From Lachnospiraceae bacterium (lineage in GTDB: Bacteria > Bacillota > Clostridia > Lachnospirales > Lachnospiraceae), in contig JAQXTA010000010.1 of NCBI GenBank assembly GCA_029219245.1, positions 1 through 45,500 of the forward strand: a DNA stretch of 45,500 nucleotides, read 5' to 3'. The notes below the pieces were generated by a model. It was not told where the DNA came from and searched no databases. It saw only the letters and a program-made list of their open reading frames with translations. Made by a program: the position numbers and the translations under genes. Shown here piece after piece: positions 15,975-36,015 of this stretch; within the stretch, counting starts at the first letter, position 1; each line of letters starts with the position of its first letter.

Positions 15975-16913
15975 TTATGACTCTCTGCCACATAGTTTTT
16001 GGCATAATTCCATCGCTTTATTAAGGCTTTCTTTAAGTTCCTTATTCTCTTGTAATAATGCACGAATCGTCTGATAGGAGTCATCCGAAAGTCCATTCCA
16101 GAATACTTCCTCCATCATCTCAATATAGAATGGTGTTTCTTTTGCATACAGCCACCAGATTTTCTCCATTTCATAGTGCACTCCGCTATACTTCCATGGC
16201 TTACGACCGGCGAAATGAATAATTTTCATTTCGGATAATGTTTCCTCATTCAACGATACATTCTGGGAAAATACATTATATTTTGTATTATCTACATATA
16301 ATACATTCCCGAAATGTAAATAGTTCAAAAGGTCTTGATCCGGATTTGTCAGAGAATATCCTGCTCTTTCTGCTATCCTATAGTAATCTTCAAAGCAACA
16401 TCTTTTTCTGACTTTATCTAAATCATATAGAATCATTCCTGAATTAAAGTACCGCAGTTCTTCACCAAACTCAGCAAATAATTCCTTTTGCTCTTTACTA
16501 TAATTTCCCTGTATCATTGGGTCATCTGCAACTGCCAGTTCCATTTCCTGCATATCCATATTATAAAATTCTTTAATAGAAGCATGAACAATAATATCAA
16601 TATCCAAATATAGAACCCTGTTTACTATTTGAGGCAAAACTTCTCCCATAAGCAAGCGAAAGTAAATCTCCCTTGTCCAGTTTTCTGTAATGGGCAATTT
16701 CATCAGACGTGACTCCATATCTATCTTTAAATATTCTATTTTCTGTATGTCCTCTACAGCAAGGCTATTCAACAGCCTTTTATCTTCCTCAGTCAAACCC
16801 TGATGCAATACATAAACACGAATCTTACTACTTCTATTGTTGGAAAACAAAGAATATAACATAACATATGCATACCGGATATAACGGCTATTAACTGCAA
16901 TGGCAATATTCAT
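15975..16913 (-). CDS. GT8 family glycosyltransferase
   Basis: This 312-residue retaining enzyme of the GT8 (LgtC/glycogenin-like) type has MNIAIAVNSRYIRYAYVML at the start. The metal-binding VLYLDIDIIVHASIKEF follows near residue 100, then RYFNSGMILYDLDKVRK, NPDQDLLNYLHF and IIHFAGRKPWKY, the usual order of GT8 motifs. The ATG at 16913 is chosen because AAGGAG sits at the right distance. A longer open frame exists upstream, but it runs through the flagellin terminator and antisense-frames the flagellin gene. It lies directly behind that terminator, so its expression may depend on read-through from the flagellin transcript. A role in flagellin glycosylation is plausible but unproven. Confidence 0.88.
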   Translation of the reverse strand: MNIAIAVNSRYIRYAYVMLYSLFSNNRSSKIRVYVLHQGLTEEDKRLLNSLAVEDIQKIEYLKIDMESRLMKLPITENWTREIYFRLLMGEVLPQIVNRVLYLDIDIIVHASIKEFYNMDMQEMELAVADDPMIQGNYSKEQKELFAEFGEELRYFNSGMILYDLDKVRKRCCFEDYYRIAERAGYSLTNPDQDLLNYLHFGNVLYVDNTKYNVFSQNVSLNEETLSEMKIIHFAGRKPWKYSGVHYEMEKIWWLYAKETPFYIEMMEEVFWNGLSDDSYQTIRALLQENKELKESLNKAMELCQKLCGRES

Positions 16914-16930
16914 ATAAGAATCTCCTTTTA

Positions 16931-16960
16931 TAAAAAAGAGCCGCCCATTGGGCGGCTCTT
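16931..16960 (-). terminator. Strong intrinsic terminator of the flagellin gene
   Basis: On the minus strand, AAGAGCCGCCC and GGGCGGCTCTT form a perfect 11-bp GC-rich stem with a 3-base loop, followed by a T-run. It lies about 40 bp behind the flagellin stop, and its T-run almost touches the ribosome site of the GT8 gene. Confidence 0.93.
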
Positions 16961-17001
16961 GGTAGTTTACTAAGCAATGTGCATTCTTACTTACTATGTA
17001 A

Positions 17002-17931
17002 TTAGCCAAGTAAGGACAGTGCCAACTGGTTAGACTGATTAGCCTGAGATAACATAGATGTACCAGCCTGCTGTAAGATATTGTTGTTAGAGTATTTAAC
17101 CATCTCTGTAGCAATATCTGTATCACGAATCTGAGATTCTGCAGCTGTTGTATTCTCAACAATGTTATCCAGATTGCTGATTGTGTGCTCAAGTCTGTTC
17201 TGAACAGCACCAAGATCGGAACGCTGTTTGGAAACTTCCTGTAAAGCAGCTTTAACGAATGCATTCAAGCTTGCAAAATCTTTTTCAACAGCAGATGTAT
17301 CAATATCATCTTTGTCAAAATCATAATAGAATTTGCTCATGATATCATCCAATTTTGCGGACAAATCAACTGTGTTCTTACCGTCTGTGCTATACTTCTT
17401 TGTGCTCTGATTCTCTTCAACAAGATCTCTCAAACCACCCATACTCATATCCTGAATGGTAATAGAAATATGCTGACCAGCTTCTGCACCAACCTGAAGA
17501 GCTTTTCCAGTGAACTCACCTGTTAACAGGTTCTGCTCATTGAATGTTGTTGTGCTCTGTACACGATCGATTTCAGACATTAACTGCTGAACTTCAGTCT
17601 GGATATAAGAACGATCTGTGGATGTCAAAGTAGCATTTTCTCCTTTAACAGCCAATTCATTCATACGCTGTAACATATCATGTACTTCATTCAATGCACC
17701 TTCTGCTGTCTGTACGCAAGAAATACCATCCTGTGCATTAGCAGATGCCTGTGTAAGACCTCTGATCTGACGTCTCATCTTCTCGGAAATAGCTAAACCT
17801 GCTGCATCATCTGCTGCGCGGTTAATCTTGTAACCAGAAGATAATCTCTCAGTGGATTTTGCCTGAGCGCTTGTTGTTAAACCAAGCATTCTGTTAGAGT
17901 TCATTGCTGTAATGTTGTGTTGTACTACCAT
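17002..17931 (-). CDS. hag: Flagellin (major filament protein)
   Basis: This 309-residue flagellin has the N-terminal D0/D1 signature (VVQHNITAMNSNRMLGLT, LSSGYKINRAADDAAGLAIS) and the C-terminal one (GAVQNRLEHTISNLDNI, SQIRDTDIATEMV, NILQQAGTSMLSQANQ). Only a short variable part separates them at about 140-215, so it is a compact Firmicutes-type flagellin. It polymerises into the filament after FliS-assisted export. The TLR5-contact pattern is kept (R89, L93, E113). Cys72 is unusual in a flagellin. AGGAGG precedes the ATG, and the gene has its own sigma-28 promoter, a 125-base structured leader and a strong terminator, all signs of very high expression. It is the likely main filament subunit among three flagellin genes here. 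Confidence 0.97.
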   Translation of the reverse strand: MVVQHNITAMNSNRMLGLTTSAQAKSTERLSSGYKINRAADDAAGLAISEKMRRQIRGLTQASANAQDGISCVQTAEGALNEVHDMLQRMNELAVKGENATLTSTDRSYIQTEVQQLMSEIDRVQSTTTFNEQNLLTGEFTGKALQVGAEAGQHISITIQDMSMGGLRDLVEENQSTKKYSTDGKNTVDLSAKLDDIMSKFYYDFDKDDIDTSAVEKDFASLNAFVKAALQEVSKQRSDLGAVQNRLEHTISNLDNIVENTTAAESQIRDTDIATEMVKYSNNNILQQAGTSMLSQANQSNQLALSLLG

Positions 17932-21871: not shown

Positions 21872-23032
21872 TTATTTAGAGTTTGGAAACAAAATTGAAA
21901 TTATTTTACCTACTTGATGTTCATAAGTATAGTTTTCTTTCACCCTTTTATATCCATTTATCCCTATTCTGGTTCTTTCACTGTCATGCTTCAGATAATA
22001 ATCAGCCTTTTCAATTAATTCTTCCGGTGTTTTAAATGTCACGATTTCTTTATCTTCCTCAAATAATTCCGGAATTTCTTCCTGCCAGTTTGATAACACA
22101 AATCCACCCACACTCATTACATCAAAAACCCTCGCCGGAATACCCGTTTCAATGCTTCTCAATGTAATATTCAAATTAATTTTACTGGAATAAAATACCT
22201 TTAGTGCTTCGCTCCCTGCACTAACCTCTGGAAATCTTTTTATTCCTTCAGGTACCTGTTCTATTGCTCTGGTATACAGATTTATATCATATCTCTCTGC
22301 CAGAAGTTCCATCAAAAGTGTTCTCTCTACATTGGTCAACTTCCGCTCAAAGAATAAAGTTCTAATGAAGTACTCATCGTCCATCTCATATTGATTGTCA
22401 AAAAGTTCCGGGCATACATAACGAATAGTTTGTATCCATTCCGGCGAAAGCTTTATCCTACCCTTCCCATCCCACAGAAATGCGTTCTTCTCAATAATGT
22501 CAGAAAAAGCACTTTGTGCTCTGCCTGAAAATCGCTCAATACATTTGTCATATATATTCTTTGTATATAGACTGCCAACAAAGGACATGGCACAGCTATA
22601 CTTTTGAATCTCGTCATCAGTAATTATTAGTGTTTCTCCCCAGACAGTATCCGCCGCCAGAGGCAAATGATATACATTCATGTGCCCATTCTTTTTCTGT
22701 AACAGATATTCCATGTAATCAAAGTAGAAAAGATAACAATTATCATACCTGGAATCCGGAACCCATGTGGAATAAGTCGGTGAGTCCATACACCAAATAG
22801 CATATTTCATATTTAATTTATTGGTGACTCTCGCCACAGAAACGGTAAAAATATTTGATAAAACAAAATCAACTTTATATTTTTTTAAAAAATCTTCTAT
22901 TTCTTTCTCTTCATCTTCCCCTAAATCTTCCATTGGTTTTGGATAACATGCTACTTCATGCCCCAGTCTGTCCAATGTAAATATGATGCTGGGACATTCT
23001 TGTATTTTACTGCCTGTAAATAAAATTCTCAT
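21872..23032 (-). CDS. DUF3880/CgeB-type glycosyltransferase inside the flagellin cluster
   Basis: This 386-residue paralogue of the gene at 5133 has FVLSNIFTVSVARVTNKL, AIWCMDSPTYSTW, AMSFVGSLYTKNIYDKC, SKINLNITLRSIETGIPARV and DVMSVGGFVLSNWQEEIPEL. It lies 17 bp behind the interrupted flagellin and reads in the same direction, so it should be cotranscribed with flagellin genes. That is the most direct evidence in the window that this family acts on flagellin. AAGGA lies 11 bases before the ATG. About 145 bp without a gene separate it from flaG, holding the flaG promoter. Sugar donor unknown. Confidence 0.87.
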   Translation of the reverse strand: MRILFTGSKIQECPSIIFTLDRLGHEVACYPKPMEDLGEDEEKEIEDFLKKYKVDFVLSNIFTVSVARVTNKLNMKYAIWCMDSPTYSTWVPDSRYDNCYLFYFDYMEYLLQKKNGHMNVYHLPLAADTVWGETLIITDDEIQKYSCAMSFVGSLYTKNIYDKCIERFSGRAQSAFSDIIEKNAFLWDGKGRIKLSPEWIQTIRYVCPELFDNQYEMDDEYFIRTLFFERKLTNVERTLLMELLAERYDINLYTRAIEQVPEGIKRFPEVSAGSEALKVFYSSKINLNITLRSIETGIPARVFDVMSVGGFVLSNWQEEIPELFEEDKEIVTFKTPEELIEKADYYLKHDSERTRIGINGYKRVKENYTYEHQVGKIISILFPNSK

Positions 23033-23049: not shown

Positions 23050-23814
23050 TTACTGTAATAACTGTAGAACATAATTGGGTTGCTGATTTGCCTGTGCGAG
23101 CATACTTGCACCTGCCTGCTGTAAAATATTATTATTGGAATACTCTACCATCCTTTCAGCGATATCGGTATCACGAATAACTGCCTCCGAAGCCTGTGTA
23201 TTTTCTTCCACGTTCTTGTTGATATTATAAGCATGCTCCAAGCGGTTCTGATAAGCGCCAAAAGTGGAACGCTGCCTGCTGACATCCGTTAATGCCTGCT
23301 TAATTTCATCAATTGCTTTATCGGTATCCTCTCTTGTCAGTACATTAGTATCCTCAAGTCCTAAATCCTTGACACTAAAAAAATCATACAACACTTCAAT
23401 GTGTTGCCCACCTTCCGTCCCTGCCTGCACGAAAAAGCCACAGGTCCCGCCATAAACAGGCACATCTATCTTGTGTGATTTCTCACTTGCTTCATGTATA
23501 GTATTGCTGTCATTCGTTCCAGAAGTCGTATAAAGGTCTACAATCGTATTACTATTTAATGCACTATTAATGCGGTTCAATACACTCTGTTCCGTATCTG
23601 TCTTGGAATTGACAGATACGGTAATTGTAAAACTCCCCACATTATTCGATGTTTGACCGTTTCCATAAGTATAGGAATCAGTTGATTTCAGTGAAAAATA
23701 GATATTAATATACCCGGTTCCCCCTTCATTGCAGGCACCACCATTTGCCGGATTTAATAATCCTGGTGTGTTCGTCGTATTATCACCATTAAGTGCCGCC
23801 ATGACAGAACCCAA
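23050..23814 (-). CDS. Flagellin, C-terminal portion downstream of the TGA
   Basis: This 254-residue frame could start at a TTG at 23814 behind an AAGGTGAGGGG stretch, or at an ATG at 23802, but neither resembles a natural flagellin start. It contains the end of the variable domain (two Cys) and the C-terminal signature: LGLEDTNVL, VSRQRSTFGAYQNRLEHAYN, AVIRDTDIAERMVEYSNNN, ILQQAGASMLAQANQQPN. It is best seen as the rest of the interrupted gene; independent initiation is possible but unsupported. Confidence 0.6.
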   Translation of the reverse strand: MGSVMAALNGDNTTNTPGLLNPANGGACNEGGTGYINIYFSLKSTDSYTYGNGQTSNNVGSFTITVSVNSKTDTEQSVLNRINSALNSNTIVDLYTTSGTNDSNTIHEASEKSHKIDVPVYGGTCGFFVQAGTEGGQHIEVLYDFFSVKDLGLEDTNVLTREDTDKAIDEIKQALTDVSRQRSTFGAYQNRLEHAYNINKNVEENTQASEAVIRDTDIAERMVEYSNNNILQQAGASMLAQANQQPNYVLQLLQ

Positions 23815-23889
23815 AGTCCCCTCACCTTTTTCAGTCGAAGACTTTATATTGTATGATTTATAATACTCTTTCTTGCCGTTTTTCCAATA

Positions 23890-25119
23890 TCAGGACCAAT
23901 CCCACCAGATATGTTCATCCTTATCTTCTGTTTCGGATGCATTATAATATCTTACAGAATCAGAGGTCGCAGTCACTTCACCAATGCCATCCATATAAAA
24001 AGTAAATTCCCAATTATCGGTGCAGTTCTGTGCTATTGCGACATCTGCCGTTCCACCTGCCGGCACCTTTGTCAGATTTCCACCTGTTGCCTGTGTTTGT
24101 ACCAGAGTTCCACTTCCATCTGACGGCTCTAAAAACTTATCATCCGCAGCATCAAAATTATGTCCGTATCCATTCGTATTACTATTTACATTATGATTCG
24201 ATGCGTATGCTGCGGAATAATACAGGCTGGCACTCCCAATGCTAACCCCGGCTGTACTTGTGGAAGAACCATTATTCTTTTCAAATCGCACAGACATGGA
24301 AGCATAAGATGATGATGACATTTTTGTTCCGTCAATACATTGAATAATATCATCAACCGTGGCTTCCTTCTGCACAGAAAGCGAAACCTTATTTTTAAAA
24401 ACCGGATTGCCGTTACTGTCATACAGTAAATTGCCCGCTGTTTTATCACCAAAATAGTCGCTCATTTCAAAGCTATAATTATTTGCTTTTAACGTATCCC
24501 AATCAATGGTTCGCGTACTATAACTATTACCATCATATCCAATCCAGCTTACCGATACACCGGTATCATCCGCACTTATATTATACCCGTTGTATGCAAG
24601 TACACCGCAGTTTGCATTCGTCACATCACGATTTTGTGCACCATTCTTATATTCTACCGCCTGCTTTAATGTCGTTCCAATCTGAACAGCATAGGGGGAA
24701 TCTGGATCCCATATTCGTCTTTCATTGAAAGTGGTTGTTTCAAAGATACGATCCAGTTCTTTTTTTAATGCCTGCACCTCACTGTCAATATAACTTCTGT
24801 CTTCTTCCGTATTAGTATCATTGCCTGCCTTAACTGCCAGTTCATTCATACGTTGAAGCATATCCTGTACTTCATTTAAAGCACCTTCTGCTGTCTGTAC
24901 ATAGCCAATCCCTTCTGAAATGTTGTCTGCCGCCTGATGCAGACCACGAATCTGCCGGCGCATTTTCTCAGAAATTGCCAGTCCTGCCGCATCATCCGCA
25001 GAACGATTAATCCGGTAACCGGAAGATAACTTCTCTGCACATTTGGCATTCTTTTTTGTATTCACTTTAAACTGCCTACTTGCGTTCCCTGCAAGCATAT
25101 TATGTTGCACTGACAGCAT
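23890..25119 (-). CDS. Flagellin, N-terminal portion up to the in-frame TGA
   Basis: These 409 residues hold the export-competent N-terminus (LSVQHNMLAGNASRQFKVNT, LSSGYRINRSADDAAGLAIS, MLQRMNELAVKAGNDTNTEE) and more than half of a long variable domain rich in Ser, Asn, Tyr and Gly. There are three Cys in the variable part, rare for flagellins. Without the C-terminal D0/D1 this piece could be exported but should not join a filament, and FliS would not bind it. AGGAG stands nine bases before the ATG, 34 bp after the zinc-ribbon gene. Confidence 0.8.
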   Translation of the reverse strand: MLSVQHNMLAGNASRQFKVNTKKNAKCAEKLSSGYRINRSADDAAGLAISEKMRRQIRGLHQAADNISEGIGYVQTAEGALNEVQDMLQRMNELAVKAGNDTNTEEDRSYIDSEVQALKKELDRIFETTTFNERRIWDPDSPYAVQIGTTLKQAVEYKNGAQNRDVTNANCGVLAYNGYNISADDTGVSVSWIGYDGNSYSTRTIDWDTLKANNYSFEMSDYFGDKTAGNLLYDSNGNPVFKNKVSLSVQKEATVDDIIQCIDGTKMSSSSYASMSVRFEKNNGSSTSTAGVSIGSASLYYSAAYASNHNVNSNTNGYGHNFDAADDKFLEPSDGSGTLVQTQATGGNLTKVPAGGTADVAIAQNCTDNWEFTFYMDGIGEVTATSDSVRYYNASETEDKDEHIWWDWS

Positions 25120-25153: not shown

Positions 25154-25531
25154 TCAGTCCCACTCACCAGTCACGTTTTCTTCTAATAAATTTTCATTAC
25201 AGATAGGACAAGCTATGTTTTCTATCTTTTCCACGTTTTTTACTTTTCTTCTGCATACAGGACATACCCCCGTATACTTCTCATCCTGCTCCGGAAACTC
25301 CAATACCGGAACGCTTATTATCTGGCTGCAGGCACTACAAATTGCCGGTTCATACCGAAAATCATACATGACAGGAGGAATCTGGCTGCTGTATATGCCT
25401 ATGTGCTGTGCTTCTTTTGCCTCAAACAGTTCTACAAGTTTTCCCAGGTTTCCATGTTGAAGGCCACATCCGGTTCGTATTACCCATTCACTTTTGCATG
25501 ACCGGCATCTTATCCGCCTAATATCTCCCAT
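25154..25531 (-). CDS. Four-CxxC zinc-ribbon protein between two flagellin genes
   Basis: This 125-residue protein has four CxxC knuckles (CRSC near residue 9, CSAC near 70, CPVC near 90, CPIC near 108), enough to form two zinc ribbons. A conserved-looking RTGCGLQHG follows the first pair. No signal peptide or membrane segment is seen. Similar small proteins occur in Lachnospiraceae without a known role. Position is the main clue: it starts 17 bp after the flagellinolysin gene and ends 34 bp before the next flagellin, so it is cotranscribed with a zinc-dependent protease-flagellin. A metal-handling or chaperone role for that neighbour is a guess. It ends with TGA. Confidence 0.72.
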   Translation of the reverse strand: MGDIRRIRCRSCKSEWVIRTGCGLQHGNLGKLVELFEAKEAQHIGIYSSQIPPVMYDFRYEPAICSACSQIISVPVLEFPEQDEKYTGVCPVCRRKVKNVEKIENIACPICNENLLEENVTGEWD

Positions 25532-25548: not shown

Positions 25549-27408
25549 CTATCCAAGAAGGCTTAAAATCATTTCCGGCTGGTGATTCGCCTGTGTCAAG
25601 ACAGACTGCCCTGCCTGTAACAAAATCTGATTATTGGAAAATTCTACCATTTTTTCTGCAATATCAGTATCTCGGATTGTGGATTCCGATGCAGTGGTAT
25701 TTTCTACAATATTGTCAAGATTGGCAATTGTATGTTCCAGCCTATTCTGAACAGCACCATAGGAGCTTCTTACCTTGCTTACTGCATTCAACGCATTCTT
25801 TATCTGTTCAATAGCATCGCCCGCCGCTGCAATCGTTTTCACATTGGTATCTTCCAGTCCAAGTGCTTTCGCATCCATCTGGTATAATGTCAAATCAATA
25901 TGTTGTCCCGCTTCCGAACCAACCTGTAAGCTTATCGTTGGCGGTTTATTGCTTGCATCCACATGTACTTTGGTACCTCCGATATAAAATGCCTGTATCG
26001 GTGCAGTGTTTCCTAATATATCCGTTCCACCTGTTCCAAGCGATGGTGTAACAACAGAACCGGCACCATCCTTAGAGGCATAAGAAAGCTGTCTGACAAA
26101 GGAAACCAGATTACTGTCGCCATTTGCAAACAAACCCTCAAGTGCACTTTCCGTTAATCCGGTGTTTTTCTGGATGGCGGCTGCCAAACTGTCACCACTC
26201 AATAAATCCGAAAAAATCTTATCCATTCCGGCCGCTATGTTGGCACCAGTTACTGCTCCTCCTCCGTTTGCCAGATAGCCCAGATATGCACACCCCAGAT
26301 AACCATGTCCGTATGGTCTCCCCGACATTGTATACTTTTTCAGGTAATTTGCAATATTGGCATCCTGACTGCTGTCATTTTCATCGGAAAGTTTTCCTGC
26401 ATAGTAAGTTAAGTAGCTATTCCAGCCTGTCGTATATCCTCCTCCGGAAAGTTGCGCCGTACCCTCTTTAAACCATGTCGGATACGCATCTCCAGTTCTT
26501 CCACTCATACCATCTGTTAAATTATACTGCATAACAGTATGCATCAATTCATGTGCAAGTGTGGATTCCAACACGCCGGCATTACTACCAGTTCCTGCCG
26601 CATCTTCCTCATCAAAATCGGCCGTATCTACTTTTACTAGCATATTTATGGCTTTACCGCCACCATAACTGTAAGAATACTGCGCATATGCGAGTGTATT
26701 GCCGGGTCCATCCAGGAAAGAAACATCCAGCGACATTTCTATGGTGTCACTTCCTGTTGCTGTTTTTAAAGATGGAAAGTTATCGAAAATCTGTTTAATG
26801 GCATTTGGCAAAAGTTCATTTGCTATTTTATCTGCCAGGGCATTCCCCGTTGAAATCACTCCACCGGCTCTTGCCATACTGCCTGCTCCACTATAATCTG
26901 TTCCAATTGCAAAGGAATCACTTGTCATGTTATAAGACAATTCATAATGGTAAGTTTCCATTACCATTGCGGACATTGGAGACATACCCTTTTCCGGGAA
27001 AAGGCTCAACTCGTTAAATACTGTATAATTAGCTGTTTCATTGATTGCCTTTTTCAAGTGCTGTACTTCTGTATCCACCATCTCTCTGTCAGAGTCTGTC
27101 AGTGTTCCGTTTGCAGCCTTTACTGCAAGTTCATTTCCCCGATGCAGCATGGAATGAATCTCTTCCAGCGCGCCTTCTGCAGTCTGCACCATGGAAATAC
27201 CATCCTGTGCATTAGCAGATGCCTGTGTCAATCCGCGAATCTGCCGGCGCATTTTCTCAGAAATTGCCAGTCCTGCTGCATCGTCTGCCGCTCTGTTAAT
27301 TTTATATCCCGAAGATAATTTTTCTATACTTTTAGCACCTTTTCTTGTATTTGTTTTAAATTGTCTGCTTGCGTTCCCTGCGAGCATATTATGTTGTACT
27401 GACAGCAT
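25549..27408 (-). CDS. Flagellinolysin: flagellin with inserted zinc metallopeptidase
   Basis: This 619-residue protein has normal flagellin ends: LSSGYKINRAADDAAGLAIS at 31-50, GAVQNRLEHTIANLDNIVEN at 551-570 and STIRDTDIAEKMVEFSNN at 576-593. The central insert at about 145-480 holds a metallopeptidase. The zinc site LAHELMHTVMQY places HExxH at 286-290, and YPTWFKEGTAQLSGG gives Glu315 as the probable third ligand, a gluzincin layout. This matches the flagellinolysin family, whose described members assemble into proteolytically active filaments. Both active-site motifs are intact. A sigma-28 promoter lies 80 bp upstream, so it is coexpressed with the flagellar regulon. It heads a unit with the zinc-ribbon protein, the interrupted flagellin and a CgeB glycosyltransferase. 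Substrate unknown. Confidence 0.93.
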   Translation of the reverse strand: MLSVQHNMLAGNASRQFKTNTRKGAKSIEKLSSGYKINRAADDAAGLAISEKMRRQIRGLTQASANAQDGISMVQTAEGALEEIHSMLHRGNELAVKAANGTLTDSDREMVDTEVQHLKKAINETANYTVFNELSLFPEKGMSPMSAMVMETYHYELSYNMTSDSFAIGTDYSGAGSMARAGGVISTGNALADKIANELLPNAIKQIFDNFPSLKTATGSDTIEMSLDVSFLDGPGNTLAYAQYSYSYGGGKAINMLVKVDTADFDEEDAAGTGSNAGVLESTLAHELMHTVMQYNLTDGMSGRTGDAYPTWFKEGTAQLSGGGYTTGWNSYLTYYAGKLSDENDSSQDANIANYLKKYTMSGRPYGHGYLGCAYLGYLANGGGAVTGANIAAGMDKIFSDLLSGDSLAAAIQKNTGLTESALEGLFANGDSNLVSFVRQLSYASKDGAGSVVTPSLGTGGTDILGNTAPIQAFYIGGTKVHVDASNKPPTISLQVGSEAGQHIDLTLYQMDAKALGLEDTNVKTIAAAGDAIEQIKNALNAVSKVRSSYGAVQNRLEHTIANLDNIVENTTASESTIRDTDIAEKMVEFSNNQILLQAGQSVLTQANHQPEMILSLLG

Positions 27409-27486: not shown

Positions 27487-27514
27487 TTATCGTCAGAAAA
27501 ATTTTGTAAGTTTA
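27487..27514 (-). promoter_or_regulatory. Sigma-28 promoter of the flagellinolysin operon
   Basis: Minus strand TAAA (27511-27514), 16-base spacer, GACGATAA (27487-27494), one base off the GCCGATAA consensus. The region is shared with the divergent gene at 27612. Confidence 0.82.
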
Positions 27515-27611: not shown

Positions 27612-28796
27612 ATGGAAATCTTATTTTATCGTTACAACAGTATCTGCGAACCGGACATTATGCAGGTCTTTACCGATTTTGGTATAACCGTACATACCGA
27701 AGATATAGAAATGACTGACAAGCATGTCACACCTTCACAATGCGCTTCTAAAGTCATGGAATGGATTATGGGACATCAGCTTGCCTTTGTGTTCAGTATC
27801 AATTTTTTTCCGGCCATCTCCTATACCTGTAACCGCTTCCATGTGCCTTATGTCTGTTGGAGCGTGGACAGTCCTGTGGCGGAGCTTTTTTCCAATGCCC
27901 TGAAAAATGAATGGAACCGGATTTTCCTGTTTGACCATGCACAGTATGAATTCTTTCATCCCTATAATCCGGAGCATATTTATTATTTGCCGCTTGCCAC
28001 AAACGTAAAGCGATGGGAAAAAGTAATTCTGGATATGACAGAAGAGGATTTTTACAAATACGGAAGTGATGTTTCTTTTGTTGGCTCCCTTTATACGGAA
28101 AAATGCCGTTATGACCGGATTGCATCTTCGCTTTCTGAATATACGCAGGGTTATGTTAATGGGCTGATACAGGCACAAATGAAGGTAAACGGTTATAATT
28201 TTATTTATGATACACTTCCAGAACGAGTCATTGAGGAAATCGTTTCCGCCGATCCGAATTTTTATAAATGGGAAGACGTTTTTTTAGATACCGACCGCTA
28301 TCTGGCAGCCCACCAGTATATCGGGATGAAGCTAGCCGCCGTAGAACGTCAGGAACTTCTTGGTGCTTTATCGGAGCATTTTCAAGTAGCATTGTATACA
28401 CACAGTGATACCCGTGCTTTGCCTAAAGTGTATGCGATGGGCGGTGCATCCACTCTGACGGAAATGCCGAAAGTCTTCCATGCAAGCAAAATCAACCTGA
28501 ATATTACCATGCGGCCGATTGAAACCGGACTGTCACTTCGTATATGGGATGTGCTTGGCTGCGGTGGTTTTCTGTTGACGAATTATCAGGCGGAAATCCC
28601 GGAATATTTTGAAATCGGAAAAGATTTGGAGGTCTATGAAAGCAAACAGGATTTAATCAATAAGGTGGATTATTATCTGAACCATGATGATAAACGCATG
28701 GAAATCGCATTAAACGGCTATGAAAAAACAGCCGCATATCATACCTATGAAATGCGGCTTGCTCAAATGATTAAAATATTAAGTATACAAAATTAA
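27612..28796 (+). CDS. DUF3880/CgeB-type glycosyltransferase, divergent from flagellinolysin
   Basis: This 394-residue enzyme has FVFSINFFPAISYTC, CWSVDSPVAELF, VSFVGSLYTEKCRYDRI, SKINLNITMRPIETGLSLRI and DVLGCGGFLLTNYQAEIPEY. The closest relative in the window is 3928-5109. GGAG lies six bases before the ATG. It is divergent from the flagellinolysin gene, with about 200 bp between the starts. Its last 24 codons lie in a 57-bp segment that is repeated at 30216, and a terminator hairpin acting on the opposite strand is embedded there. The role in flagellin glycosylation is inferred from position and paralogy. Confidence 0.87.
   Translation: MEILFYRYNSICEPDIMQVFTDFGITVHTEDIEMTDKHVTPSQCASKVMEWIMGHQLAFVFSINFFPAISYTCNRFHVPYVCWSVDSPVAELFSNALKNEWNRIFLFDHAQYEFFHPYNPEHIYYLPLATNVKRWEKVILDMTEEDFYKYGSDVSFVGSLYTEKCRYDRIASSLSEYTQGYVNGLIQAQMKVNGYNFIYDTLPERVIEEIVSADPNFYKWEDVFLDTDRYLAAHQYIGMKLAAVERQELLGALSEHFQVALYTHSDTRALPKVYAMGGASTLTEMPKVFHASKINLNITMRPIETGLSLRIWDVLGCGGFLLTNYQAEIPEYFEIGKDLEVYESKQDLINKVDYYLNHDDKRMEIALNGYEKTAAYHTYEMRLAQMIKILSIQN
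28726..28782. repeat. 57-bp direct repeat, left copy (end of glycosyltransferase gene)
   Basis: The first 44 bases (28726-28769) are identical to 30216-30259, and the next 13 differ by two bases. This copy is inside the 3' end of the gene at 27612. The two copies bracket the ATPase gene. Confidence 0.93.
28730..28759 (-). terminator. Terminator hairpin behind the ATPase gene
   Basis: Minus strand: a 13-bp stem (AGCCGCATTTCAT with one mismatch) and 4-base loop, then GTTTTTT. It lies 43 bp past the ATPase stop, inside the convergent glycosyltransferase coding region. On the plus strand there is no T-run. Confidence 0.7.
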
Positions 28797-32487: not shown

Positions 32488-34314
32488 TTAAACACCTGTT
32501 TCCAGAATCAGTCTGTCATAAACCTCTGTCAAAGTAGAAATCATCTTGGATGCCAGTGTATAGGAATTTTGGTATTTTACAAGGCTTACTGCCTCTTCAT
32601 CTTCATCTACTCCCGAAATGGAAGTTCTCTGATTTTCGATACTGACTTCCAGACTTAAGTATGTACTGTAAAAAGTATTGGCATCGCTGGCATTGAGTGC
32701 TGCATCGGAAAGTACGCACTCTAAGAAACCGCCTGCATCCCTTCCGCGGAAGCTGAACTGGTTTTTGTCGGTCAGCAAAGAAATCACCTTTTTTACCTGT
32801 TCGCATTCTTCCACACCGTTTGCTGCATCGCTTCTTGTACCAAGCAAAGAAGCATCTTTTATCAGTTCCTTGGAAATAGCAAAATTTCCTGCTGTCAGAT
32901 AATAATAGCCTTTGCCGTTCTTCTTCGAGTCATTCAACTGGGATTCGGTGTACTGTCCATCTGTTGTAACAAAATCACCGGTAAAAAGAATTCCGGCATC
33001 CTCTCCCTCACTTGTTACACCCTGTGTAAAAATGTTGTTAACCGCTTTGGAAAAATCTCTTATCCACTCATTCATCTGTGCCATGTAATAGGGAACGCCC
33101 TGATATTTTACACAGGCACCGATGCTTGCTTCTTTTCCATTCTTCCCGGTAATCAACGGCTCATCACTCTTCTCATTATCAATCGTAAAAGTATATTTGC
33201 CATCTCCGTCATAGGACCAGTCTGTGTAATAATAAATCTGGTCACCAATCACAATCGTACCACCGGTATCCGATAAATTACATTTACTCATACTGTTCAG
33301 ATACTCTGCGGTTGTAGCTATCTTTACGTTGCTGGTCTGTTTGTTATAAGAAACCGATTCCACCTTACCTGTAAAGCCTTCTCCGTTATTGCCATCACGC
33401 ATCTGAATCAATCCGCGAAGCTCACCATACATGGATTCGTTATAAAGTCCAAACTCTGTACCATTCGACCAGACAATATCATAAAGACCATCCACATCGG
33501 TCTGATTTACTTTTTCATCAAACCTTCTCGCCTTACAGATTAACTGATTGTAATCATTCTGGTCAACCAGTGTCTGCCCGCCGGCAATTCTGACAATCAG
33601 ACGGTTTGCTCCTGTTTCATTCCCCGCCTGGTCATAAATCGGAACTTCTGTGGTATCCACATCTACAATCGCAGAAAGCTCATCCAGCAAAACATCCCTT
33701 TTATCACGCAGTTCATTAGCAATCGTGCCCGTCATTTCGATGACATTAATCTGTTTGTTGATGGTCGCCAGATCCTGCGCAATGGAATTAATCTTATCAA
33801 CGCGGATTTTAATTTCGTCATTGACATCTGACTGTAGGTTCTGTAAATCACCATACATATTATTAAAATAATCAGCCATACTCTTTACGGTAGAAATAAA
33901 CTGCGCTTTCGTAGAATCAGAGTTGCTGTTTTTGGTAATTTCCTGTAAAGCATTGGATACCTGATTAAAAACGGTTTTAAAACCGGTCACATTATCATCC
34001 GTCAGATACTCCTCTAACATCTTCATATAGTATGCCTTGACATCATATTCACCAAGCTTTGTTTCATTGTCCCGATATTTTGTATCATAAAAGCTGTCAC
34101 GAATGCGTTCAATCGCAATAGTATCCACACCGGCACCTGCACATCCGTAAGTTGCAAAAACGCGCAGCGCATTGTTCGCCTCCTGTTTTACTGCCTGCCG
34201 GCTGTAACCATCCGTACTGGCATTTGCAATGTTATTTCCGGTCGTATTTAATGCTGCGTTGGCAGCTCGTAAACCCGAGGATGCAATTGTTAAACCAAAA
34301 AATGTAGATGACAT
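32488..34314 (-). CDS. flgK: Flagellar hook-associated protein FlgK, copy nearer flgL
   Basis: This 608-residue protein begins SSTFFGLTIASSGLRAANAA with the conserved ALNTTGNNIANASTDGYSRQ. It ends with the axial-protein motif EAVSLVKYQNSYTLASKMIS followed by TLTEVYDRLI. FlgK (HAP1) forms the ring between hook and filament adaptor. It differs strongly in the middle from the paralogue at 34333. One Cys (YGCAGAG) lies near residue 58. The usual family length is 450-650. It lies 18 bp behind the other flgK and 19 bp before flgL. Confidence 0.93.
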   Translation of the reverse strand: MSSTFFGLTIASSGLRAANAALNTTGNNIANASTDGYSRQAVKQEANNALRVFATYGCAGAGVDTIAIERIRDSFYDTKYRDNETKLGEYDVKAYYMKMLEEYLTDDNVTGFKTVFNQVSNALQEITKNSNSDSTKAQFISTVKSMADYFNNMYGDLQNLQSDVNDEIKIRVDKINSIAQDLATINKQINVIEMTGTIANELRDKRDVLLDELSAIVDVDTTEVPIYDQAGNETGANRLIVRIAGGQTLVDQNDYNQLICKARRFDEKVNQTDVDGLYDIVWSNGTEFGLYNESMYGELRGLIQMRDGNNGEGFTGKVESVSYNKQTSNVKIATTAEYLNSMSKCNLSDTGGTIVIGDQIYYYTDWSYDGDGKYTFTIDNEKSDEPLITGKNGKEASIGACVKYQGVPYYMAQMNEWIRDFSKAVNNIFTQGVTSEGEDAGILFTGDFVTTDGQYTESQLNDSKKNGKGYYYLTAGNFAISKELIKDASLLGTRSDAANGVEECEQVKKVISLLTDKNQFSFRGRDAGGFLECVLSDAALNASDANTFYSTYLSLEVSIENQRTSISGVDEDEEAVSLVKYQNSYTLASKMISTLTEVYDRLILETGV

Positions 34315-34332
34315 GTTCTCACCTCTCGTTTC

Positions 34333-36015
34333 CTATCTTCCTAATGTTGTCAGAATGTGCTCCAGCATCTCACTGATAACATTGATATAACGGCTGGATG
34401 CATTGTATGCATTCTGGTACATTATCATGTTCGTCAGTTCTTCATCCGAGGAAACCCCAACGATTTGTTCCCTTGCGCTGTTTAAAGAATCAACGGTAAC
34501 CGTCTGGCTTTCCTGAATGGAAGCAAATACAGCACCGGAATTAGCAACCTGGGAAACCAGATTTTTATAGTAGTCATTAAAGCAGACCGGTGTCTGCACA
34601 TTTGGATTCAACGTATAAACCGTTTCCTGGAAGGCTTTCTTCAATTCTTCCATAGTGGCATTGTCTTCGGAAGAATCAGCCAGACGGAATGTTAACAGTG
34701 CCGGATTCTGACGAAGTTCCATGTTAACTACCAGATTGTTGACATTCCAACCGGTTTCCACTACCGTTCCGTCCGGCAGGGTAACTGTTTTCCCCTCATC
34801 AATAATCCGGGTAAATAACTGATAAGGTTCCCCCTTTTCATCTCTTAAGTAGTCCGAGTCCGGATAAACTGCGGATTCCCGATTTGCCGCATCTGCCAGA
34901 ATTCCGTTTATTTTCGTTGTTACCGCATTGATTAACTGATCAAACTCGGCTTCAATATTCATAATAATCGACTGGGAAATCTGTCTGTCATACCAGCCTT
35001 CTTCATATTCCCCATCCGGATTGATATCCTTGATTTCCAATCCGGTAGCTCTGTGGTCTCCTCTGGCTAAAAGAATGCCTTTTAACGAACCGATATCCGT
35101 ATTCAAATCGGATGCTATCGTCTTGGTTAAATCAAATACTTTGGCGGCATCCAGACTTTCTTCGGTTAATATTTTCTTACCTTCTTCGGTATAAGTATAG
35201 GTAGCATACATCTCCCAATATGGTGTGTAAAATCCAGTCTGTTGGTCTTCATAAAGTGACATCTGGTTTACCAGACCACCCTTTACCAGATCCACACCTT
35301 CAAATTTCACGCTCAGATATCCCATATCATCTTCGGCATAGGAGATGTTTCCCATTTTGGCGAGTTCATCCAATAGCTGATTACGCTGGTCTCTCAAATC
35401 ATTGGCATGTTCAACCCCACCAGCTTCTATTTTAATAATATGCTCATTCAGTTCCTCAATGGTCTGGGCATACTGATTAATCTGATCCACTTTCTGCAGG
35501 ACAGACTGATTCATATTGTCCTGATAATCGCATAAGCTTTGATATACTGCCGATGCTTTTGTAATAAATTCATGGGAACGTGTCACAAACAGGTTCTGGT
35601 TTACCGCACTGGTCGGATCCTTGCTGAGTTCTTCCACTGCGGTCCATAAATTCGTAAGTGCTTCTGAGAATTCATGTCCCTCATTGGATTCTCCCAGAAT
35701 GTCCTCTATCTCTTCCATAGCATTATAAGATACCTCGTAAAAGGCACTCCTGCCAGACTCACGACGATAGTTTTTATCCAGAAAATAATCTCTTACCTGT
35801 CTTGTTTGGGAATAATTGACACCTAAGCCCAACTGCTGCCAGCTTACGGTAGAACTCTTGGAAATGGTATTATATGACCTTGTTCCAAGCGCTACCTGCT
35901 GTCTGGTATAGCCCTCAGTGTCTAAGTTAGACATGTTATGCGCTGTTGTATTTAACGCATTTTGTGAAGTTTGTAATCCTGATACGCCCAAATAGAGGCT
36001 TCCCATCAATGACAT
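34333..36015 (-). CDS. flgK: Flagellar hook-associated protein FlgK, copy nearer flgN
   Basis: This 560-residue protein opens MSLMGSLYLGVSGLQTSQNA with ALNTTAHNMSNLDTEGYTRQ and ends TNMIMYQNAYNASSRYINVI. Both ends fit FlgK. The middle is acidic and coiled-coil-rich (KVDQINQYAQTIEELNEHII). Its N-terminus departs from the classic ANAALNTTGNNIAN form, so it may be specialised, for instance forming a separate ring layer or alternating with the other copy. It follows flgN by 27 bp in the flgM operon. Confidence 0.92.
   Translation of the reverse strand: MSLMGSLYLGVSGLQTSQNALNTTAHNMSNLDTEGYTRQQVALGTRSYNTISKSSTVSWQQLGLGVNYSQTRQVRDYFLDKNYRRESGRSAFYEVSYNAMEEIEDILGESNEGHEFSEALTNLWTAVEELSKDPTSAVNQNLFVTRSHEFITKASAVYQSLCDYQDNMNQSVLQKVDQINQYAQTIEELNEHIIKIEAGGVEHANDLRDQRNQLLDELAKMGNISYAEDDMGYLSVKFEGVDLVKGGLVNQMSLYEDQQTGFYTPYWEMYATYTYTEEGKKILTEESLDAAKVFDLTKTIASDLNTDIGSLKGILLARGDHRATGLEIKDINPDGEYEEGWYDRQISQSIIMNIEAEFDQLINAVTTKINGILADAANRESAVYPDSDYLRDEKGEPYQLFTRIIDEGKTVTLPDGTVVETGWNVNNLVVNMELRQNPALLTFRLADSSEDNATMEELKKAFQETVYTLNPNVQTPVCFNDYYKNLVSQVANSGAVFASIQESQTVTVDSLNSAREQIVGVSSDEELTNMIMYQNAYNASSRYINVISEMLEHILTTLGR

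Follow-up and report, generated by a model that had tools for sequence, protein, structure and literature searches.

The window, i.e., the whole stretch of DNA analysed here (positions 1 to 45,500 of contig JAQXTA010000010.1, to which all coordinates refer), contains a flagellin gene that carries a metallopeptidase. This locus raises two questions: whether the gene encodes an intact flagellinolysin, and what part is played by the small gene that adjoins it.

An Intact Flagellinolysin With a Conserved Zinc-Peptidase Motif

The features of the peptidase-bearing flagellin gene are as follows.

25549..27408, minus strand: flagellinolysin gene, 619 aa, with flagellin D0/D1 ends and a variable region that holds a gluzincin-type metallopeptidase (NF033876, Pfam)
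26998..27408, minus strand: N-terminal D0/D1, residues 1-137; PF00669 (Flagellin_N) at residues 4-137, E 3.9e-38
25555..25809, minus strand: C-terminal D1/D0, residues 534-618; PF00700 (Flagellin_C), E 4.5e-24
26029..26841, minus strand: metallopeptidase region, residues 190-460, from AlphaFold2 confidence and a sequence profile that finds M9 collagenases
26539..26553, minus strand: HELMH zinc-binding/catalytic motif, residues 286-290; H286, E287 and H290 invariant in 52/52 relatives
26464..26466, minus strand: Glu315, candidate third zinc ligand, in WFKEG; invariant in 52/52
26626..26628, minus strand: Asp261, matching by spacing count the published calcium-site Asp (site described in PMC5595980); D in 46, E in 5 and N in 1 of 52

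The original prediction of an intact flagellinolysin was confirmed. The 619-codon reading frame is open on the minus strand from 27408 down to 25549, the plus frame there having many stops, and the NCBIfam equivalog model NF033876 (flagellinolysin) matched residues 112-549 with 212.8 bits against a cut-off of 205. The complete D0/D1 ends that had been claimed were also recovered: both flagellin domains scored over the Pfam cut-off, are complete or nearly so, and flank the inserted domain. Similarly, the claims of an HExxH motif at residues 286-290, of Glu315 as its candidate third ligand, and of a full set of catalytic residues were borne out by H286, E287, H290 and E315. Residue conservation was read from an alignment of 52 out of 161 relatives, which came from two homology searches (120 listed of 687 matches in one, and 41 from the other). 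The motif AHExxH...[WF]xxEG is kept in all 161. The residue at the Asp261 column is acidic (D or E) in 51 of the 52 aligned relatives, its assignment to the calcium site being made by spacing count.

In the AlphaFold2 model of the flagellinolysin, the block mean pLDDT was 71-97 from residue 191 on, with block means of ≥ 90 for residues 331-450 and < 50 for most of residues 147-183. A fold search with the whole model was uninformative on the peptidase fold because the D0/D1 part fills the match list, the 50 rows shown per answer being flagellins. A profile of the peptidase region (28 rows) was compared with PDB sequences and found the clostridial collagenases (M9) ColT (the best match, E 2.7e-4), ColG (from 5.1e-4) and ColH (1.6e-3 to 0.07), as well as a neutral metalloprotease. 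The peptidase region of the window itself had no Pfam M9 match, and two relatives remained below the M9 cut-off (23 vs. 26 bits). The profile result agrees with the remote relation to M9 reported for the flagellinolysin peptidase in PMC5595980. On sequence grounds, the window protein is a further member of the published flagellinolysin family, with predicted activity.

Two members of this family have been characterised. FliA(H)/FlaMP of Clostridium haemolyticum assembles and is proteolytic (PMC5595980), and HgrFlaMP of Hylemonella gracilis, which has the same architecture, is a zinc peptidase that depends on calcium and has casein and flagellins among its substrates (PMC7643111). By analogy with both, the window flagellinolysin may be displayed on the filament and act as a protease there (PMC5595980; PMC7643111). 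It shares with FliA(H)/FlaMP and NF033876 the flagellin ends, the HExxH motif, the third-ligand Glu and an acidic residue at the calcium-site position. In contrast to FliA(H)/FlaMP, the Lachnospiraceae-type copies have about 45 additional residues after D1 in the alignment rows shown (window residues roughly 145-190); moreover, they lie on a separate branch of flagellin backbones and are accompanied by the partner gene described below. Residues R90, L94 and E114 of the D1 part, presumably contact positions for Toll-like receptor 5, are invariant columns among the 52 relatives.

A Small Cysteine-Rich Gene Adjoins the Flagellinolysin

A further gene in the window, which the original prediction had overlooked, is the new part of this locus.

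25154..25531, minus strand: partner gene, beginning 17 nt after the flagellinolysin stop; 125 aa, four CxxC pairs, Trp-Asp at the C-terminus

The eight cysteines (four CxxC pairs), the initial MG and the terminal WD are invariant in 24 of 24 partners. In a broader set (n = 21) that includes distant members down to about 20% identity, WD ends all 21 proteins and the Gly two positions before the Trp is kept in 20; one member (L098) is missing two cysteines, and two members have CxC as the first pair. No Pfam match to the partner was found at 1e-3, and in a relaxed search with three members, all listed Pfam and NCBIfam matches fell below the cut-off (for Pfam, the best 25 of 32 matches). The AlphaFold2 model of the partner consists mostly of strands (pLDDT 88.9) and gave no Foldseek match at E ≤ 0.001. 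Its sequence, on reading, has no obvious signal peptide. The partner is probably a small cytoplasmic zinc-ribbon protein, with putative zinc binding. A search of a set of 5.8 billion proteins found 38 proteins, including the window's own.

Linkage Between the Partner and Flagellinolysins

A homologue of the partner lies directly downstream of the flagellinolysin in 21 of 21 Lachnospiraceae-type loci (L007-L027, L013 being the window), and none lies directly downstream in L006 and L028. Among the loci on GTDB contigs, the partner stands beside 10 of 10 flagellinolysins. In 61 related genomes, the partner profile matched 17 places in 16 genomes: 15 of them adjoin the 15 flagellinolysins, and the remaining two are a copy at a contig start (G009) and a fragment (G033). 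All 15 flagellinolysins of the same genus (> 140 bits, in 14 of 37 genomes) have the partner, downstream in 12 cases and upstream in 3 (G007, G021, and G031:C28), so the linkage survives a change of gene order.

We also analysed larger samples. In the family, the profile matched in 13 of 299 genomes. Seven of these matches adjoin flagellinolysins, the window's own included; one (G157) lies beside a 989-aa flagellin with HExxH, one (G301) is at a contig edge, and four are weaker (G107, G065, G210, and G099). The stretches around the distant relatives in G107 and G065 contain no flagellin. Three of the 10 flagellinolysins of the family (G336, G338, and G152) have no partner in the stretch taken, which for G152 is limited by a contig of 3.7 kb. 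In the class, matches occurred in 10 of 391 genomes: G000, G574 (a pair), G586, G730, and six weak ones; no flagellin lies within 10 kb of the distant relative in G730. Over these searches, the weak matches include G210, G099, G728, G488, G213, G682, G451, and G317. The G586 locus was considered as a partner beside an ordinary flagellin, and this reading was rejected: the neighbour is a flagellinolysin truncated at its active site.

Several broken flagellinolysin copies each still adjoin the partner gene, namely L101 (G343), L102/L025 (G091), L017 (G030), and L121 (G586). In G030 and G091 the frame is interrupted, in G586 it is truncated at the active site, and the broken copy of G343 has lost the catalytic Glu.

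A second type of partner, a frame of 104-106 aa with CxxC pairs, the start MGxxF and the end FYD, was found downstream of four flagellinolysins (L117, L118, L128, and L135) of other families in three genomes. The main partner profile gives this type 15-19 bits, and hhalign reports a probability of 92% over 80 columns, although CxxC repeats can inflate such scores. From these sequence comparisons, common ancestry of the two types is possible. Of 47 distinct flagellinolysin frames, 34 have a partner of either type and 13 have none recognisable in their flanks; in this count most flanks were searched over 1-3 kb, L025/L102 and L131/L136 are each taken as one gene, and the frames counted are those with an intact motif, flagellins such as those of G343, G586, and L132 being left out. 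The 13 frames include strong members of other families (L116 and L130) as well as G336, G338, and G152, and therefore the partner is not needed everywhere.

Joint Presence and Absence at One Site, and Co-divergence

In five genomes (G001, G002, G013, G015, and G032), the pair lies between two genes that we take to be scpB and dac. An scpB gene is present in 30 of the 31 genomes searched, 23 of the 31 being without a flagellinolysin of > 140 bits. In 16 of these 30 genomes, scpB is followed directly by dac within about 105 nt, i.e., the site is empty. No dac lies within the stretch in 12 of the 30, in the case of G015 because the pair intervenes, and in G035 the scpB-dac gap is 1.07 kb. In G033, where no flagellinolysin was found, a 63-codon remnant of the partner (its 3′ end) remains between scpB and dac. 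Based on this joint presence and absence and on the remnant, the simplest reading is that the pair has been gained and lost as a unit.

We next consider whether the two proteins diverged together. The co-divergence set comprised 23 pairs, with L017 left out because its frame is broken. With the backbone removed, the partial correlation between partner and peptidase distances was 0.61 and 0.71, and 0 of 999 permutations was as high; without the three divergent pairs, it was 0.41 and 0.53, and at most 1 of 999 permutations was as high. With the peptidase removed, the partial correlation between partner and backbone distances was 0.38 and 0.44 (0 of 999 permutations as high), so that shared descent explains part of the correlation. 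The sequence distances thus lend support to a contact between the partner and the peptidase.

A Sigma-28-Type Promoter Box and the Flagellar Context

27487..27514, minus strand: sigma-28-type box TAAA-N16-GACGATAA, 78 nt before the flagellinolysin ATG

The flagellar-class (sigma-28) promoter claimed for this gene was supported. We compared the box TAAA-N16-GACGATAA with what we take to be the sigma-28 (FliA) consensus, of the type TAAA-N14-16-GCCGATAA, and found 11 of 12 matches; among 500 Markov shuffles, 5 scored at least as high. Most relatives have a comparable box upstream, usually with a spacing of 16 as well. The window and 19 relatives were then scored with a box that was loosened after the sequences had been inspected: of these 20 upstream regions, 16 had at least 11 of 12 and 10 had 12, against 1.15% and 0.4% of 4,000 random 200-nt stretches from nine loci. 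L024 has no clear sigma-28-type box (score 9); the test left out L006 and L028, which are of other types, and L025, in which no start was found in frame. Ahead of the partner, in seven partner-first loci and G301 (at a contig edge), a box was convincing in two of eight (L094, 10/12; L096, 11/12) and none was clear in six; in L098, a 10/12 box precedes the flagellinolysin rather than the partner. Co-transcription is only partly supported at these loci.

The genome encodes FliA (sigma-28), with 267.8 bits against a cut-off of 189.6, and FlhA is also over its cut-off. The window encodes FlgM, FlgN, FliW, FliS, FliD, FlaG, and two FlgK-like proteins, the genes for the latter standing in tandem at 32488-36015 on the minus strand. 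A further gene is, from its position, presumably flgL. Glycosyltransferase genes flank the flagellin genes at 21872-23032 (minus strand), 27612-28796 (plus strand), and 15975-17264 (minus strand), two with DUF3880 and one of the GT8 type, which suggests glycosylation of the flagellins. The next flagellin gene, at 23050-25119 on the minus strand, is broken by an in-frame TGA at 23890-23892, which leaves Flagellin_N and Flagellin_C on separate pieces of the one frame. In genomes of the same genus, flagellins of comparable length (about 686-705 aa) run without a break. The TGA may be a genuine lesion or may stem from the assembly.

Distribution of Flagellinolysins and Their Flagellin Backbones

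NF033876 was over its cut-off in 13 of the 61 related genomes. At > 140 bits, it matched 15 places in 14 of 37 genomes of the genus and one in another family (G055). A sample of 299 genomes of the family yielded flagellinolysins in 10 (E ≤ 1e-30), and they occurred in 6 of 391 genomes of the class and 8 of 398 of the phylum (E ≤ 1e-20). On GTDB contigs, 11 loci matched the query, nine of them from Lachnospiraceae; ten of the 11 are flagellinolysins, the exception being L028, a flagellin whose middle part is of another kind. At least two close relatives among the 120 listed of 687 matches already bear the name flagellinolysin at NCBI. In viral contigs, the search pattern matched in eight stretches, none of which encodes a relative. 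Among plasmids, 188 records matched, with identity always < 60% and query coverage always < 80%. Neither search therefore pointed to carriage by phages or plasmids.

In another lineage (L129, L131, L134, and L136-L138), YIKEG, YVKEG or YIAEG replaces WF.EG; some of these genes are in tandem or occur at two places per genome, and no partner lies within about 1 kb of them. An HExxH...EG peptidase is also present in very long flagellins of 961-1094 aa (L094, L097, and L092).

In a D0/D1 tree of 92 rows, 63 of them with the peptidase, the 36 Lachnospiraceae-type flagellinolysins form a cluster (100/100) together with 16 ordinary flagellins from the same genus, apart from the Clostridium/Bacillus type. 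L002, an ordinary flagellin encoded in the window's own genome, lies elsewhere on a long branch. The ordinary flagellins included are a partial sample, i.e., the best-scoring matches from 30 loci. The peptidase label changes at least three times on starred branches; therefore, the peptidase has moved between flagellin backbones or been lost repeatedly, as was proposed in general in PMC5595980.

A Proposed Role for the Partner

The flagellum-borne protease is of a kind already known, and the adjoining small partner gene is undescribed. The word search of the main text of PMC5595980 gave no mention of a CxxC/Trp-Asp partner. For HgrFlaMP, whose host is a Gram-negative freshwater bacterium, the neighbours named in the accessible text of PMC7643111 are a NUDIX hydrolase, a MarR regulator and others, and no such partner. 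No such partner appeared in the titles and opening abstract lines listed for open-licence PMC papers on proteolytic flagellin (15 of 24), proteolysis and flagellin in Lachnospiraceae (10 of 99), flagellin with zinc-ribbon chaperones (3 of 3) or flagellin and metallopeptidases in Lachnospiraceae (9 of 9), and in the articles that use the word flagellinolysin, chaperone occurs only in reference to FliS.

We propose that the two genes form a unit in which the partner probably works intracellularly on the peptidase, as a chaperone or an inhibitor, before flagellar export. The flagellinolysin gene would be one of the late flagellar genes, read from a sigma-28 promoter of its own. Its product would be secreted by the flagellar export apparatus and co-polymerised with the cell's ordinary flagellins, and a zinc peptidase would thereby be placed on the filament surface. 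The partner would bind the peptidase part in the cytoplasm and keep it unfolded or inactive until export, and its invariant C-terminal Trp-Asp would be the likely contact. Export, assembly and proteolysis of the window flagellinolysin are assumed here after the published members, and the zinc binding, contact and chaperone or inhibitor role of the partner are put forward in this study. The genomes with the partner hold several other flagellins, and it is the peptidase-bearing ones that the partner accompanies. Because of this company, the lack of an obvious signal peptide and the confident model, a cytoplasmic chaperone or inhibitor is favoured.

Dedicated flagellar export chaperones such as FliS and FlgN are likewise small genes beside their presumed cargo genes, and the partner resembles them in this respect. 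It differs from them in that it is cysteine-rich and mostly made of strands in the model, and separate fliS and flgN genes are present in the window; neither FliS nor FlgN was among the Pfam matches or listed fold matches of the partner.

Regulation and zinc loading are the main rivals to a chaperone or inhibitor role. Zinc ribbons often bind nucleic acids, and the partner could, given that the two genes are adjacent, be a nucleic-acid-binding regulator that tunes flagellinolysin expression. We consider this unlikely: no regulator family was over its cut-off, the fold search gave no match within its threshold, and a protein contact accounts better for the invariance of the C-terminal residues and for the way in which partner divergence tracks the peptidase. 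A role in metal loading or folding, in which the partner gives zinc to the peptidase instead of restraining it, is also quite improbable. A match to HypA covers only part of the HypA model, HypA is listed for the window's partner only at E 1.4, and L098 does without two of the cysteines. In addition, flagellins are exported unfolded, and zinc loaded in the cytoplasm would thus be wasted.

Two further explanations fare worse. The window flagellinolysin could be a decaying copy that is inactive or not assembled; such decay is seen in the interrupted, cut or mutated copies of G030, G091, G586, and G343, and the neighbouring flagellin in the window is interrupted. The 619 open codons, the catalytic residues and the NF033876 score over the cut-off make this very unlikely here. 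Least plausible of all is a mere passenger, a neighbour that stays without functional coupling. In favour of it, short intergenic gaps on the same strand occur in any operon and distant partner relatives stand without a flagellin nearby (G107, G065, and G730), but linkage in two gene orders, joint presence and absence at scpB-dac and the 15 of 15 pairs in the genus speak against it.

Within the favoured chaperone or inhibitor role, a more specific version can be put forward as a rather speculative suggestion. The partner might represent an undescribed protein family whose dedicated task is to guard a flagellum-borne protease inside the cell: a double zinc ribbon would dock its Trp-Asp in the peptidase cleft and hold the cleft closed, or the protein unfolded, until the export gate is reached, with a distant Phe-Tyr-Asp version in a second lineage. 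If true, this would explain how a cell escapes self-digestion while it builds a filament of active protease.

The export of many protease copies through the flagellar channel without harm to the cell is a question that the accessible texts of PMC5595980 and PMC7643111 leave unaddressed, and with the conserved partner gene it can be put to the test on two proteins. Of the two flagellinolysins characterised, one is from an animal pathogen and the other from a freshwater bacterium. The pair described here is found repeatedly in commensal-type Lachnospiraceae, whose flagella, judging from their presumed habitat, would meet mucus and host proteins.
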